Source: a bacterium (lineage in GTDB: Bacteria; CAIJMQ01; JAADFP01). From it: a stretch of 5,611 bases of DNA. Numbering within the stretch: position 1 is the first letter of the stretch; each line of letters starts with the position of its first letter. The notes under the pieces were generated by a model. That model did no database searches, was not told the DNA's origin, and saw only the letters and a program-made list of their open reading frames with translations. Both the position numbers and the translations under genes were made by a program. This document shows positions 1,780-5,611 of this stretch, piece after piece. The stretch covers positions 1 through 5,611 of the forward strand of contig JALUVB010000285.1 of assembly GCA_027021085.1 (NCBI GenBank), written 5' to 3'.

Positions 1780-1797
1780 TTATGAAATTTTTCACTT
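1780..1797. promoter_or_regulatory. Putative Rex operator, upstream site
   Basis: The core 1783-1794 reads TGAAATTTTTCA, with perfect 5-bp inverted arms around a 2-bp centre. Over 18 bp it matches 11 of the 14 fixed positions of the known Rex consensus (TTGTGAA, four bases, TTCACAA). Its right end overlaps the first two bases of the -35 box of the rex promoter, so a bound dimer would be expected to block RNA polymerase. The assignment rests on sequence resemblance and on its position in front of rex, which is commonly autoregulated. Confidence 0.6.
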
Positions 1798-1824: not shown

Positions 1825-1842
1825 TAATGAAAATTTTCATAA
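1825..1842. promoter_or_regulatory. Putative Rex operator, downstream site at the transcription start
   Basis: Bases 1827-1840 form a perfect 14-bp palindrome, ATGAAAATTTTCAT, with further outer T/A pairing at the 18-bp edges. It shares the TGAA/TTCA half-site cores with the upstream site and matches 11 of 14 fixed positions of the Rex consensus. Its centre is 45 bp from that of the upstream site. It starts directly after the -10 box, covers the predicted transcription start, and ends two bases before the rex ATG, which suits an autoregulatory repressor site. Confidence 0.62.
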
Positions 1843-1843
1843 A

Positions 1844-2485
1844 ATGAAGAGAATTCCGGAGGTAACAGTAGAGAGGTTGATTAAATATCTTCGTTTTGTG
1901 GAAGAAATGGAAAAAGAAGGAATGAGAAATTTAACCGCGAAGCAGATAGCAGGAAGTCTCGGTTTGAATCCTCATTTAGTGAGGAAGGATCTGGCTTACT
2001 TTGGGCAGTTCGGGAAAAGAGGGAAGGGATACCAGACCGAGAAATTAAAGGAAACACTGCGGAAAATTATGGGGCTTGATAAAAGATGGAGGGTGGCTCT
2101 GGTAGGGGTAGGTAACCTCGGTTCAGCGCTTCTTCGTTACCCGGGATTTAAAGAGAGAGGTTTCGATGTTATATGTGCGTTTGATACCTCTCCCCAGAAA
2201 ATAGGAAAACAGATTGGAGCGGTAAAGATAGAAAGCATGGATAAGATAGAGGAGATTATTAGCAAAGAAAATATAAAGATAGCTATTTTGTCTATTCCCA
2301 AGGAGGCAGCGGAGGAAGTTTCTGACCGGTTGCTGAAAGCTGGAATAATGGGAATTCTTAATTTTGCCCCCAGGCATTTGCAGTATTCGTATCCTTTTAG
2401 AGTACTGAATGTTGACCTCTCACTTTATTTAGAAAGTTTGACCTTCTACTTGGAGAATGATGGAAAGAAAAACCTTAGTATGTAA
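1844..2485 (+). CDS. rex: Redox-sensing transcriptional repressor Rex
   Basis: Rex is a cytoplasmic dimeric repressor that binds DNA when NAD+ is plentiful and leaves it when NADH rises, releasing fermentation, hydrogenase and respiratory genes. The 213 residues match the family length. Residues 4-65 form the winged-helix domain, with the family signature VRKDLAYFGQFGKRGKGY (46-63). The Rossmann domain shows GVGNLGSAL (88-96), Asp114 in AFDTSP at the end of the second strand, and GILNFAPRHL (170-179). The C-terminal helix NVDLSLYLESLTFYL (189-203) is the domain-swapped dimer element. The ATG at 1844 is chosen because Rex proteins typically begin a few residues before the IP-x-x-T segment seen here. 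No Shine-Dalgarno sequence precedes it, and the predicted leader is very short. It is the first gene of the operon and overlaps the next gene by 29 nt. Two operator-like palindromes in its promoter imply autoregulation. Confidence 0.97.
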   Translation: MKRIPEVTVERLIKYLRFVEEMEKEGMRNLTAKQIAGSLGLNPHLVRKDLAYFGQFGKRGKGYQTEKLKETLRKIMGLDKRWRVALVGVGNLGSALLRYPGFKERGFDVICAFDTSPQKIGKQIGAVKIESMDKIEEIISKENIKIAILSIPKEAAEEVSDRLLKAGIMGILNFAPRHLQYSYPFRVLNVDLSLYLESLTFYLENDGKKNLSM

Positions 2486-3509
2486 AATTCCCCGCAAGGA
2501 ATTGGGGGAATTTATTGCCTGGCTGGAAGAGGAGTGTCCGGTCTATGGAATCAGGAAAAGAGACGACAAATTAAGTTTTGGAAAAATTGAAAAGCCGGAT
2601 GAAGTAGTGGTAGGGGGAGCCAGGATTACCCAGCCGGTTTTCAAGAGCCTTCTATTTCCTCCCCGCGAAAAGGTAGCCACCTATTTTACCGGGGAAAGTA
2701 ATGCGGGGGAAAAAGAAGCAGAGAAGAAAATTATCTTTGGAGTGAAGAGCTGCGATCTTAAAGGGTTATTGGTTTATGATAAGGTTTTCAGGGATTCTTC
2801 TCCTGCGGATCCTTTTTACCTGGACAGGCGGGAAGAATACTACATAATCTCTTCGGATTGCACTGCACCTTTATCCACCTGTTTCTGCTCTTTTGTGGAA
2901 ATCAACCCTTACCCGGAAACTCTTTTCGATTTAAATTTAACTCCTCTGGAAGATATTATTTTGTTGGAAGTAGGAAGTAAGTGGGGAGAGTTTGTAGTAA
3001 AGAAGTATCCTACCTATCTGGCTCAGCCGGAAGACCTGGAGAGAAGGAAGAAATTCAGAGAGGATTTGACAGAAGAGGTGAGAAAAATAAATGAAGGAAT
3101 CTTCCCCTTGTCGCGGCCTTATGCCAACCTGATGAGGTTAGAGCTGGAGTCTCCTGCATGGGAAAGTGAGTCCGAATTCTGTGTTGCTTGTGGGGGTTGC
3201 ACGGCTATTTGCCCTACCTGTTACTGTTACCTTTTATACGATGAGAAGGGAAAAGAGAATTACGAAAAAATAAGAATCTGGGATTATTGCCAGTATCCCT
3301 CCTTTGCTCAGGAAGCGGGCGGCGCCAATCCCCGCAGGAAGTTAACGGAGAGATTTCGTCATCGCTATGCTCATAAGTTTGATTATGGAATGGTAAGGAA
3401 TGGTATTTACGAGTGCTCAGGATGTGGGAGATGCATTGAGGTTTGTGCGGGTAAAATAGACATGCGTAAGGTTTTTAAGAAAGTGGCAGAAAGCAGGACA
3501 GAGTCATGA
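2457..3509 (+). CDS. 4Fe-4S dicluster subunit, sulfhydrogenase-beta (HydB) / AsrA type
   Basis: This is an electron-transfer subunit of the family that includes the beta subunit of archaeal sulfhydrogenases and AsrA of anaerobic sulfite reductase, which relays electrons between an NAD(P)H-flavin partner and the catalytic subunits. The N-terminal half contains GVKSCDLKGLLVYDKVF (95-111) and a cysteine cluster C135, C142, C144 (TCFC), both typical of the family. Two CxxCxxCxxxC ferredoxin motifs follow, at C242/245/248/252 and C320/323/326/330, for two [4Fe-4S] clusters. The first motif runs on into PTCYCY (C255, C257), a family hallmark, and C278 lies between the motifs. There is no signal peptide or membrane segment. 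GGAGA at 2452-2456 gives better spacing for the second ATG (2460), so the true protein may be 349 residues. The start lies inside rex, and the stop overlaps the next gene as ATGA, so translation is probably coupled at both ends. Membership in HydB versus AsrA cannot be settled from this gene alone. Confidence 0.86.
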   Translation: MMERKTLVCKIPRKELGEFIAWLEEECPVYGIRKRDDKLSFGKIEKPDEVVVGGARITQPVFKSLLFPPREKVATYFTGESNAGEKEAEKKIIFGVKSCDLKGLLVYDKVFRDSSPADPFYLDRREEYYIISSDCTAPLSTCFCSFVEINPYPETLFDLNLTPLEDIILLEVGSKWGEFVVKKYPTYLAQPEDLERRKKFREDLTEEVRKINEGIFPLSRPYANLMRLELESPAWESESEFCVACGGCTAICPTCYCYLLYDEKGKENYEKIRIWDYCQYPSFAQEAGGANPRRKLTERFRHRYAHKFDYGMVRNGIYECSGCGRCIEVCAGKIDMRKVFKKVAESRTES

Positions 3510-4342
3510 TAAGGAATTCTTATTTACCTATTCCGGGAGAGCTGGTCAAGGTGGTGGAGGAGACCTCCAATATAAAGACTTTTCGTATAGTACCTGAGGA
3601 AGAATTCTCCTTTCAGGCAGGGCAATTTATAGAGCTAACTGTTCCCGGGGTAGGAGAGGCACCCTTTACTCCTTCTTCTTCTCCTTTTGAAAAGAAATTT
3701 CTGGAAGTAACCGTAATGAAAGTAGGACGTGTAACCACTGCCTTACACGAATTGGAACCCGGGGTTAAGCTGGGGATCAGAGGCCCTTTTGGTGCACCGT
3801 ATCCCCTGGATGTATTTGCCGGTAAAGACGTGGTTATAGTGGGAGGCGGAGTGGGCTTAGCTCCCTTGAGGGCTCTTTTTCTTACCTTAATGGAAGAAAA
3901 AGATAAATATAAAAAAATAATATTTTGCTGTGGCGCAAAGACTCCGGAAGATTTTATATACAGGGAAAGTATTCTGGATAAGTGGCACAGAGAATTCTCC
4001 GACAAGGTGTGTTTTCGGATAACTGTTGACCAGGCAGATGAAAAATGGAAAGGAAACGTAGGGCTGGTAACTACTACATTAGATGGGTTGAATGGGGAAA
4101 TCTCTAATTTTGATACATCTGTAGCAGTGGTGTGTGGGCCTCCGGTAATGATGAAATTTACCACCTTTAAGCTTCTTGAGGTAGGCTATAAACCGGAAAG
4201 TATCTATCTTTCCATGGAAAAGAATATGTCCTGTGGGTTAGGTAAATGTGGGCATTGTATGATGGGCCCTTACTATGTGTGCAAAGATGGCCCGGTATTT
4301 CCTTACAGTAAGCTAAAAAATATGCCTAAAGTATGGGATTGA
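3506..4342 (+). CDS. FAD/NAD(P)-binding oxidoreductase with 2Fe-2S site (HydG/AsrB/PyrK type)
   Basis: This is the predicted NAD(P)H-reacting flavoprotein of the complex. It would pass electrons between NAD(P)H, FAD, its own 2Fe-2S cluster and the dicluster subunit encoded just upstream. The 278-residue protein has the ferredoxin-NADP reductase fold. A flavin domain covers about 10-102, with AGQFIEL (38-44) and APFTPSSSP (52-60) in the place of the usual flavin-binding RxYS motif. The nucleotide domain has IVGGGVGLAPLR (111-122) and CGPPVMM (210-216). The C-terminal CGLGKCGHC motif with a later cysteine (C243, C248, C251, C259) is the 2Fe-2S site of PyrK, sulfhydrogenase gamma and AsrB. The ATG overlaps the preceding stop as ATGA, with AGGA at 3495-3498 as ribosome site. 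The pairing with a HydB/AsrA-like gene favours a sulfhydrogenase- or sulfite-reductase-type diaphorase module over a PyrK role, as no pyrimidine gene is near. NADH versus NADPH preference cannot be told. Confidence 0.88.
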   Translation: MIRNSYLPIPGELVKVVEETSNIKTFRIVPEEEFSFQAGQFIELTVPGVGEAPFTPSSSPFEKKFLEVTVMKVGRVTTALHELEPGVKLGIRGPFGAPYPLDVFAGKDVVIVGGGVGLAPLRALFLTLMEEKDKYKKIIFCCGAKTPEDFIYRESILDKWHREFSDKVCFRITVDQADEKWKGNVGLVTTTLDGLNGEISNFDTSVAVVCGPPVMMKFTTFKLLEVGYKPESIYLSMEKNMSCGLGKCGHCMMGPYYVCKDGPVFPYSKLKNMPKVWD

Positions 4343-4344
4343 AA

Positions 4345-4821
4345 ATGAAAAAATTGTTTATAGATATGGATATCTGCGAAAAGTGCCCCAAGTGTGTGGT
4401 GGAATGTGACTATTATTACCATCCGGGTAACATAGGTATCATTGACCTGAGGGAATTAATCAGTTTTGCAATTTACTGCCGTAGATGCAAGGAGGCGCCC
4501 TGCGTTAATTCCTGTCCCAGGGAGGCGTTGGCTAAGATTGAGGATGAGATGGTGCGCAGGAATAGCTACCTTTGTATAGCATGTTATACCTGCATGGCTG
4601 CTTGCCCGTTTGGTACTATCTTCAGGGAAACTACACCTTACCTCACTTCGCGTTGTGATTTTTGTATTGATAGGAGTAATGGGAAAAAACCTGTTTGCGT
4701 AGAAACCTGTACCTACGGGGCATTAGACTGGAGAGAGGGAGAGGAAGAGGAGGAAAAGGAGACTTTCCAGATAGGCGAGCGTTTATTGGTGCATATTAAA
4801 AAATGGAAAAGGGATATTTAA
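4345..4821 (+). CDS. Four-cluster 4Fe-4S electron-transfer subunit (HycB/CooF/DmsB-like)
   Basis: This small soluble electron-wire protein resembles the polyferredoxin subunits HycB, HydN and CooF, which link an electron donor to membrane-bound hydrogenases. Counting from this start it has 158 residues and exactly sixteen cysteines in four groups: C11/14/17/21, C45/48/53/57, C77/80/83/87 (followed by Pro) and C104/107/118/122. That is the interleaved layout of proteins with four [4Fe-4S] clusters. An acidic run EGEEEEEKE (131-139) precedes a basic C-terminus. I prefer the ATG at 4345 because GGGA (4335-4338) lies 6 nt before it and the protein then opens directly into the first cluster motif. 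An in-frame ATG at 4333 would add four residues and overlap the upstream gene by 10 nt. The stop abuts the next ATG with no gap. It lacks a twin-arginine signal, so it should face the cytoplasm. Confidence 0.87.
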   Translation: MKKLFIDMDICEKCPKCVVECDYYYHPGNIGIIDLRELISFAIYCRRCKEAPCVNSCPREALAKIEDEMVRRNSYLCIACYTCMAACPFGTIFRETTPYLTSRCDFCIDRSNGKKPVCVETCTYGALDWREGEEEEEKETFQIGERLLVHIKKWKRDI

Positions 4822-5611
4822 ATGGATAATTCTCTCTTCTCTTTTTTGGTGTTTCCCGGGTTCCTGTTTATTGCCATTGTGGGGCTGCTCTTCGTGGGGA
4901 TAGACAGGAAGCTTTCTGCCAGGTTCCAGTGGAGGTTGGGGCCGCCTATCTGGCAGCCCTTCATAGACTTTATGAAATTGCTCAGCAAGGAAGTGGTTTT
5001 GCCAAGAAACGTAAATAAGGCAATGTTTTTCCTGTCACCCCTGATGGGGTTATCCGGGGTAATAGTTGCTTCCCTTCTGCTGTTCCGTGCTCCTCTTAAT
5101 CCGCATGGCGCATTTATGGGAGACATTGTTGTATTTATCTATTTGCTTCTTTTAATACCGCTTTCCGTTATATTGAGTGCCTCGTCTTCTGCTAACCCGC
5201 TTTCTTCTGTAGGTAGTTCGCGCGAGATAAAAATGGTTCTCTCTTACGAATTGCCTTTTATCCTGGCCATATTTACCGCTGTATTAAAGGTAGGGAGTTT
5301 GAAAATGGGCGACTTCTTGCTCTATCAGTCTCAGAGAGGGGCCCTGTTTCTTACCAGTCCCTCCTGTGTATTTGCCTTTGTTGCTGCCTTCCTGGTTATC
5401 CAGGCGAAATTAGCCCTGGCCCCTTTTGACATACCAGAGGCAGAAACAGAAATTATGGGTGGGACGCTTATTGAGTATTCTGGTCCGTTACTGGCTTTAT
5501 TTTACCTGGTAAAGGCCATACTCTACTTTACTCTTACTGCCTTCCTGGTATTTATTTTCTGGGGCGGGATTACTTTTACTGGATGGGGAGCGGTTCTCTC
5601 CCTGCTTAAAA
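4822..5611 (+). CDS. Complex I subunit 1 / NuoH-EchB-HycD family membrane subunit (3' end beyond the window)
   Basis: The reading frame is open from the ATG at 4822 to the window edge (263 codons plus one base), so the protein is incomplete only because the sequence stops. NuoH-family proteins form the membrane base of complex I and group 4 [NiFe] hydrogenases, coupling electron transfer in the peripheral arm to ion pumping. Matching blocks are DRKLSARFQWRLGPP (28-42) leading to QPFIDFMKLLSKE (45-57), SSREIKMVLSYELP (132-145), and APFDIPEAETEIMGG through EYSG (200-221), the conserved acidic loop near the quinone or coupling site. Hydrophobic segments lie near 10-26, 70-87, 101-119, 138-157, 183-199 and 222-248. 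The GSSRE variant resembles the hydrogenase-type (EchB/HycD) branch as much as classical NuoH. AAGGGA (4809-4814) is a well-spaced ribosome site, and the ATG directly follows the previous stop. Usual length is about 290-330, so most of the gene is present. Confidence 0.9.
   Translation, partial: MDNSLFSFLVFPGFLFIAIVGLLFVGIDRKLSARFQWRLGPPIWQPFIDFMKLLSKEVVLPRNVNKAMFFLSPLMGLSGVIVASLLLFRAPLNPHGAFMGDIVVFIYLLLLIPLSVILSASSSANPLSSVGSSREIKMVLSYELPFILAIFTAVLKVGSLKMGDFLLYQSQRGALFLTSPSCVFAFVAAFLVIQAKLALAPFDIPEAETEIMGGTLIEYSGPLLALFYLVKAILYFTLTAFLVFIFWGGITFTGWGAVLSLLK

Follow-up and report, generated by a model that had tools for sequence, protein, structure and literature searches.

A predicted NAD(P)H-linked, membrane-bound [NiFe] hydrogenase operon

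The 5611-base window analysed here is one complete contig (JALUVB010000285.1, hereafter C285) of the bacterial metagenome-assembled genome (MAG) GCA_027021085.1. With a probability of roughly 0.72, it represents the 5' half of an operon under Rex control that encodes an Mrp-linked, membrane-bound group 4 [NiFe] hydrogenase with NAD(P)H as electron partner, i.e. an ion-translocating NAD(P)H:H+ oxidoreductase. We draw this reading from the subunits, metal ligands, gene order, co-inheritance and Rex sites found in the sequences. The plus strand carries seven genes, namely aroE, a prepilin peptidase gene, rex, hydB, hydG, hycB and nuoH, the last of which is cut by the contig end at residue 263. 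The source genome is fragmented (1.93 Mb in 307 contigs, 94% complete).

The rex gene (1844..2485) encodes an NADH/NAD+-sensing repressor scoring over the cut-off of profile NF003995 (2.9e-74). It is followed on the same strand by a hydB/asrA-like gene for an iron-sulfur subunit (2457..3509), a hydG/asrB-like gene for a subunit with FAD, NAD(P)H-binding and [2Fe-2S] regions (3506..4342), a hycB/cooF-like linker gene (4333..4821, with an in-frame ATG at 4345 as alternative possible start) and the truncated gene of a nuoH/mbhM-like membrane anchor (4822..5611; NADHdh PF00146, 8e-53). Overlaps amount to 29 nt between rex and hydB, 4 nt between hydB and hydG and 10 nt between hydG and hycB, while the hycB stop directly abuts the nuoH start (0 nt between). 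An initial annotation of this DNA, made from the window alone, had described the four genes after rex as tightly packed and had assigned HydB-, HydG-, HycB- and NuoH-like domains to their products; the overlaps and the profile matches agree with it on both counts.

The 3' half of the operon and its catalytic site

In the window's own genome, matches to the antiporter and 49 kDa families are confined to one contig of 10.4 kb (G000:C128, L071). It carries nuoC (cut), nuoD, nuoM, nuoL, an MbhD-MbhE fusion, mnhB-mnhC-mnhD-mnhE-mnhF-mnhG and a nuoI-like gene. A contig from a sister species of the same genus (JAADFP010000157.1, L031), whose NuoH is 93% identical to that of the window, shows the unbroken run pilD-rex-hydB-hydG-hycB-nuoHBCD-nuoM-nuoL-mrp-nuoI, with the nuoH-to-nuoI stretch at 4635-14474. 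About 1 kb comprising the end of nuoH, nuoB and the start of nuoC is lost between C285 and C128, and the sole Oxidored_q6 gene found in the assembly is part of another hydrogenase and not the nuoB of the hybrid. In the sister species hydB (1334-2388) is split by a frameshift, which probably reflects a mistake in sequencing or assembly, the hydB of the window being uninterrupted.

Applying the catalytic-site criteria of PMC7684303 (NiFe ligands, the glutamate E21 of MbhL and the NuoB CxxC), we found that NuoD contains the motifs RICGICSTSH and DPCYCCTER with all four [NiFe] cysteines, keeps the glutamate matching E21 and has a 34-residue tail beyond the last motif. NuoB, read in the sister species because the own assembly has its gap there, has the hydrogenase-type CxxC. 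These NuoD ligands, the E21 equivalent and the NuoB CxxC are kept in every full-length family member. The best solved match of NuoH is MbhM, and NuoD scores 316 bits against MbhL, 276 against HycE, 239 against complex I and 201 against MbsL. As the [NiFe] ligand set is complete, the missing catalytic part reads as a group 4 [NiFe] hydrogenase, with H+ as predicted acceptor. The initial annotation thus correctly placed the catalytic subunits outside the window, which ends in nuoH, but the acceptor that it regarded as unknown can now be assigned.

Two better-known types of membrane complex were considered and rejected. An ordinary Nuo operon or respiratory complex I is at odds with the NiFe cysteines and with the lack of a NuoF-type gene in the genome. 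Enzymes of the MBS/MBX type have lost two of the four NiFe cysteines and E21, which are kept here.

Two clusters are present in the nuoI-like subunit, which also has two CxxC-type pairs near its C-terminus; three cysteines of this quartet are kept in 18/18 sequences, and the fourth position is cysteine in 16 and histidine in the window species. Three antiporter-like subunits are encoded in the window genome, the sister species, G002 (L073) and L046, and two in most others.

Conservation of the gene order across phyla

Beyond the window, 29 further loci carry hydG and nuoH on one contig, and all of them have hydG-hycB-nuoH-nuoB in the same order on one strand. The longer order hydB-hydG-hycB-nuoH-nuoB is likewise kept in the 29 other loci, the genes mostly overlapping or abutting. 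Depositors labelled these records Caldisericota, Eisenbacteria, Clostridia, Latescibacterota, Omnitrophota, Desantisbacteria, Spirochaetes, Bipolaricaulota or simply 'bacterium'; nearly all are marked as MAGs, with no obvious cultured isolate among them. HydBG is present in every family locus with sufficient upstream sequence. Concordantly, 22 NuoH homologues from outside the family had no HydBG within 1.5 kb on either side, although close relatives lacking HydBG were possibly missed because loci were collected by NuoH similarity. That a known group 4 cluster of ordinary type merely acquired unrelated neighbours by chance or misassembly, as the fragmented state of the MAG might allow, has a negligible probability, for the identical order in 29 independent loci refutes it.

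The trees point in the same direction. The family NuoD sequences form one side of a branch at 100/98, in a tree that leaves out group 3b sequence, as one branch otherwise reached about 7 changes per column, and the family HydG sequences form one side of a branch at 100/100. Moreover, HydB/HydG distances correlate with NuoD distances (r 0.84-0.87), with 0 of 2000 shuffles reaching as high a value. This agreement demonstrates that the genes are inherited together; it does not demonstrate that their products touch. NiFe ligands, antiporters, gene order and trees therefore lend good support to the combination named in the initial annotation, in which an NAD(P)H module of soluble type is joined to a group 4 membrane arm. 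The features that it proposed to look for were all found: both paired CxxC ligands in the NuoD of all full-length members, antiporter-like subunits on C128 and on the sister-species contig, the gene order in 29 other loci, and coherent clades of NuoD and HydG.

Several loci depart from the common layout. A molybdopterin oxidoreductase gene sits between hydG and hycB in L032 and L035, and L077 has a distant homologue of it. In L075 (5906-15246, minus strand) and L042, nuoD is directly followed by nuoI without Mrp/antiporter genes between; in L075, hypF comes next after the operon. Five loci from Zipacnadia and Verrucomicrobia (L057-L061) carry a molybdopterin oxidoreductase gene and hydBG beside an FHL-like (formate hydrogenlyase-like) group 4 hydrogenase, whose catalytic subunit clusters with HycE (100/99). 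Therefore, group 4 hydrogenases have probably acquired HydBG on two or more occasions. An NPL-UPA2 MAG (L036, 39-3503) contains the family's nuoH-nuoB-nuoC-nuoD with intact NiFe ligands; the first NPL-UPA2 genome paper reported no well-known hydrogenase (PMC6305446).

Electron-input subunits and a possible electron path

HydB matched the NCBIfam profiles ShyB (E 7e-53), HydB (3e-44) and AsrA (9e-37), all under their equivalog cut-offs, and HydG those of AsrB (2.5e-68) and HydG (2e-57). Among solved structures, HydG matched the gamma subunit (9nez_C, 1.6e-56) and HydB the beta subunit (9nez_B, 1.8e-39) of Pyrococcus furiosus sulfhydrogenase I. Sequence similarity to solved subunits of sulfhydrogenase I, the membrane-bound hydrogenase of P. 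furiosus and formate hydrogenlyase is enough to settle the folds. Fifteen HydB cysteines are invariant among 24 sequences, which would leave room for three [4Fe-4S] clusters; the term 'dicluster' used in the initial annotation is thus probably too low. The HycB-like protein of the window belongs to the 4x[4Fe-4S] HycB/DmsB type with 16 cluster cysteines, of which the N-terminal cluster has been lost in six relatives (L033, L044, L047, L048, L062 and L075).

An AsrABC sulfite reductase was rejected as a reading of the HydBG-like genes, since AsrA and AsrB scored 127 and 230 bits against equivalog cut-offs of 323 and 289, respectively, and an AsrC-like third gene is absent from the sister-species operon. 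A group 3b sulfhydrogenase was rejected as well, its soluble catalytic pair HydA/HydD being absent from the operon. A search of plasmids returned distant AsrA/HydB-like proteins only.

The four-cluster HycB-like linker together with the HycF-type cysteine quartet suggests wiring similar to that of formate hydrogenlyase, with HydBG replacing formate dehydrogenase. Assembly into one complex, the electron path and ion pumping are predicted on this basis. Electrons of NAD(P)H would enter at the FAD and [2Fe-2S] of HydG, pass through the [4Fe-4S] clusters of HydB to the four clusters of the HycB-like linker, and continue over the two clusters of the HycF/NuoI-like subunit to the proximal cluster of NuoB and on to the [NiFe] site of NuoD, where H+ would be reduced. 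NuoH would couple this electron flow to the antiporter-like subunits, which would move H+ or Na+. The layout would thus correspond to a formate hydrogenlyase carrying a sulfhydrogenase-type NAD(P)H module instead of formate dehydrogenase.

It is improbable that ferredoxin is the sole physiological donor and HydBG a side branch or a separate soluble ferredoxin/NAD(P)H oxidoreductase sharing the operon. HydDB labels its group 4g putatively ferredoxin-coupled, and papers on Omnitrophota follow this view, but HydBG is fixed in all loci with enough upstream sequence and co-inherited as a unit, and a four-cluster HycB linker with a HycF-type quartet has no role in a plain ferredoxin-driven membrane-bound hydrogenase (MBH). 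Somewhat more credible, though still a minority view, is dual input, in which a single membrane complex would send to H+ the electrons of two donors, NAD(P)H feeding HydG and reduced ferredoxin feeding the HycB- or NuoI-like subunits. Ferredoxin would then help the uphill NADH step and pay for ion movement. Two or three antiporter-like subunits are hard to power by NADH alone, the closest solved enzyme, MBH, is driven by ferredoxin (PMC9474812), and PFOR-type genes occur in the genome. However, a ferredoxin site is not demonstrable from sequence, and HydG, in which a second flavin was not seen, belongs to the simple sulfhydrogenase type.

Rex regulation and direction of the reaction

Across 538 kb of loci, the Rex consensus TTGTGAANNNNTTCACAA was matched 11 times at ≤2 mismatches. 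All of these boxes lie within -250 to +100 of a rex or hydB frame, a region accounting for about 3% of the sequence, and three of them are perfect (L034, L046 and L074). Two, both in L041, belong to an adjacent group 3b operon (2037-6641) composed of rex, hydB, hydG and the genes of a small and a large subunit. It lies directly upstream of the hybrid operon (7590-19323) on the same strand; both kinds of HydBG-linked hydrogenase thus stand side by side in this locus.

Within the window, a weak Rex-operator-like palindrome at 1780..1797 (plus strand) has 3 mismatches to the consensus and recurs unchanged ahead of the sister-species rex. A second palindrome at 1825..1842 (plus strand), ending 1 base ahead of the rex start codon, has 3 mismatches to the general consensus and 1 to TTATGAANNNNTTCATAA. 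Both boxes are common to the two species. The aroE and type IV prepilin peptidase genes (15-1703) lie upstream of rex and are probably unrelated to the hydrogenase; the prepilin peptidase gene adjoins rex in the sister species too.

According to a passage of PMC5317091, NADH-oxidising genes are repressed by Rex at low NADH/NAD+. Hence, an excess of NADH should switch the operon on. The HydG alignment did not reveal whether NADH or NADPH is preferred, but Rex regulation favours NADH as partner. The direction of the reaction is the least certain part of our interpretation; NADH oxidation to H2 is favoured because Rex derepresses at high NADH. The same complex might instead oxidise H2, reduce NAD(P)+ and export ions, thereby providing an H2-driven NADH supply. 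We regard this reversal as rather unlikely. It would be exergonic at high H2, and the HysAB-like [NiFe(Se)] hydrogenase of the genome makes H2 part of its metabolism, but with the Rex response described in that passage the operon would be shut down just when the need for NADH is greatest. As dual input and reversal share the architecture of the NAD(P)H-linked hydrogenase proposed here, their likelihoods overlap with that assigned to it.

Several points weigh against an NADH-oxidising, H2-evolving complex as formulated above. A passage of PMC9304861 gives about -280 mV for NADH in cells and a standard value of -414 mV for H2, so the step is uphill at high H2 and would depend on ferredoxin co-oxidation, on an inward flux or gradient of ions, or on a low H2 level. 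Genome neighbourhood is no proof that HydBG docks on the membrane complex, and all family members are known from genes alone. Furthermore, C285 and C128 are bridged by the sister species only, the putative Rex boxes of the window itself are weak, and the presence of the second hydrogenase in the same genome leaves HypD as weak support for the hybrid.

This second enzyme, a HysAB-like [NiFe(Se)] hydrogenase, is encoded beside hyp genes (G000:C22, L087, 4368-11665). Its small subunit has no obvious Tat signal, and a 780-aa frame of HypF size followed by HypD lies downstream. The hybrid is therefore excluded as the only hydrogenase of the cell. Two POR_N (PFOR-type) genes and a partial FTHFS gene were also found, whereas Rnf, NuoF and [FeFe] hydrogenase were not, within the limits of 94% completeness. 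The lack of Rnf and NuoF is compatible with the earlier proposal that the complex replaces Rnf or Nuo, but in the literature Omnitrophota with 4g hydrogenases also carry Rnf.

Comparison with known systems

If the proposed complex is real, models of energy metabolism would change for Omnitrophota, Bipolaricaulota, Desantisbacteria and other uncultured lineages, and a complex I-type membrane arm would have acquired an NAD(P)H module by a second, independent route. More speculatively, the family may be a widespread, unnamed class of energy-converting hydrogenases that move ions and draw on NAD(P)H and ferredoxin together. It would be the proton-reducing equivalent of complex I, with HydBG gained independently in place of NuoEFG. 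Such a class, which we consider doubtful, would answer the role of many 'group 4g' enzymes of candidate phyla.

HydDB describes group 4g as loosely clustered, of unknown function and putatively ferredoxin-coupled. It is the literature name for Mrp-linked enzymes of Omnitrophota that are apparently the same as the hybrid family; by record name, the 4g families FEN-1320 and CAIMPC01 appear to include L049 and L043. In contrast to the ferredoxin assignment, NAD(P)H is the electron partner suggested by the fixed HydBG and by Rex operators in different phyla.

The MBH of P. furiosus (group 4d) shares the NuoH, NuoB, NuoC and NuoD core and the Mrp subunits, but is fed by ferredoxin and has neither HydBG nor a HycB-like linker, whereas the window species has three antiporter-like subunits; MbhL lies on a long branch outside the hybrid NuoD clade (100/98). 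Escherichia coli formate hydrogenlyase (group 4a) shares the four-cluster HycB linker and the HycF-type quartet, a similar quartet of HycF being located in an extension that contacts HycB (PMC9474812). However, formate dehydrogenase is absent from the sister-species operon and the hybrid NuoD falls outside the HycE clade, so the hybrid would work like a formate hydrogenlyase and is not classed as one. The group 3b sulfhydrogenase of P. furiosus (SHI) shares HydB and HydG, but is soluble and uses the catalytic pair HydA/HydD that the hybrid operon lacks.

The closest precedent, published in 2019, is a hydrogenase region of Saganbacteria RX5A (PMC6349859). There, a group 4 [NiFe] enzyme called enigmatic is accompanied by Mrp-like subunits, cooF, asrA, asrB and a molybdopterin oxidoreductase; the authors placed it nearest to those of Zixibacteria and Omnitrophica and suggested that the genes might make up an oxidoreductase module. 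Judged by this description, the combination is the same, asrA being HydB-like and asrB HydG-like; the molybdopterin oxidoreductase is absent from the window operon and present in the relatives L032 and L035. Thus, of the findings on downstream genes that the initial annotation named as refuting its proposal, an already described cluster partly applies, while an ordinary Nuo operon does not. As the combination has been noted once before, the operon is a member of a known, uncharacterised kind and not categorically new. Our analysis adds the cross-phylum link to Rex, the clade tests, the relay similar to that of formate hydrogenlyase and the case for NAD(P)H as partner.

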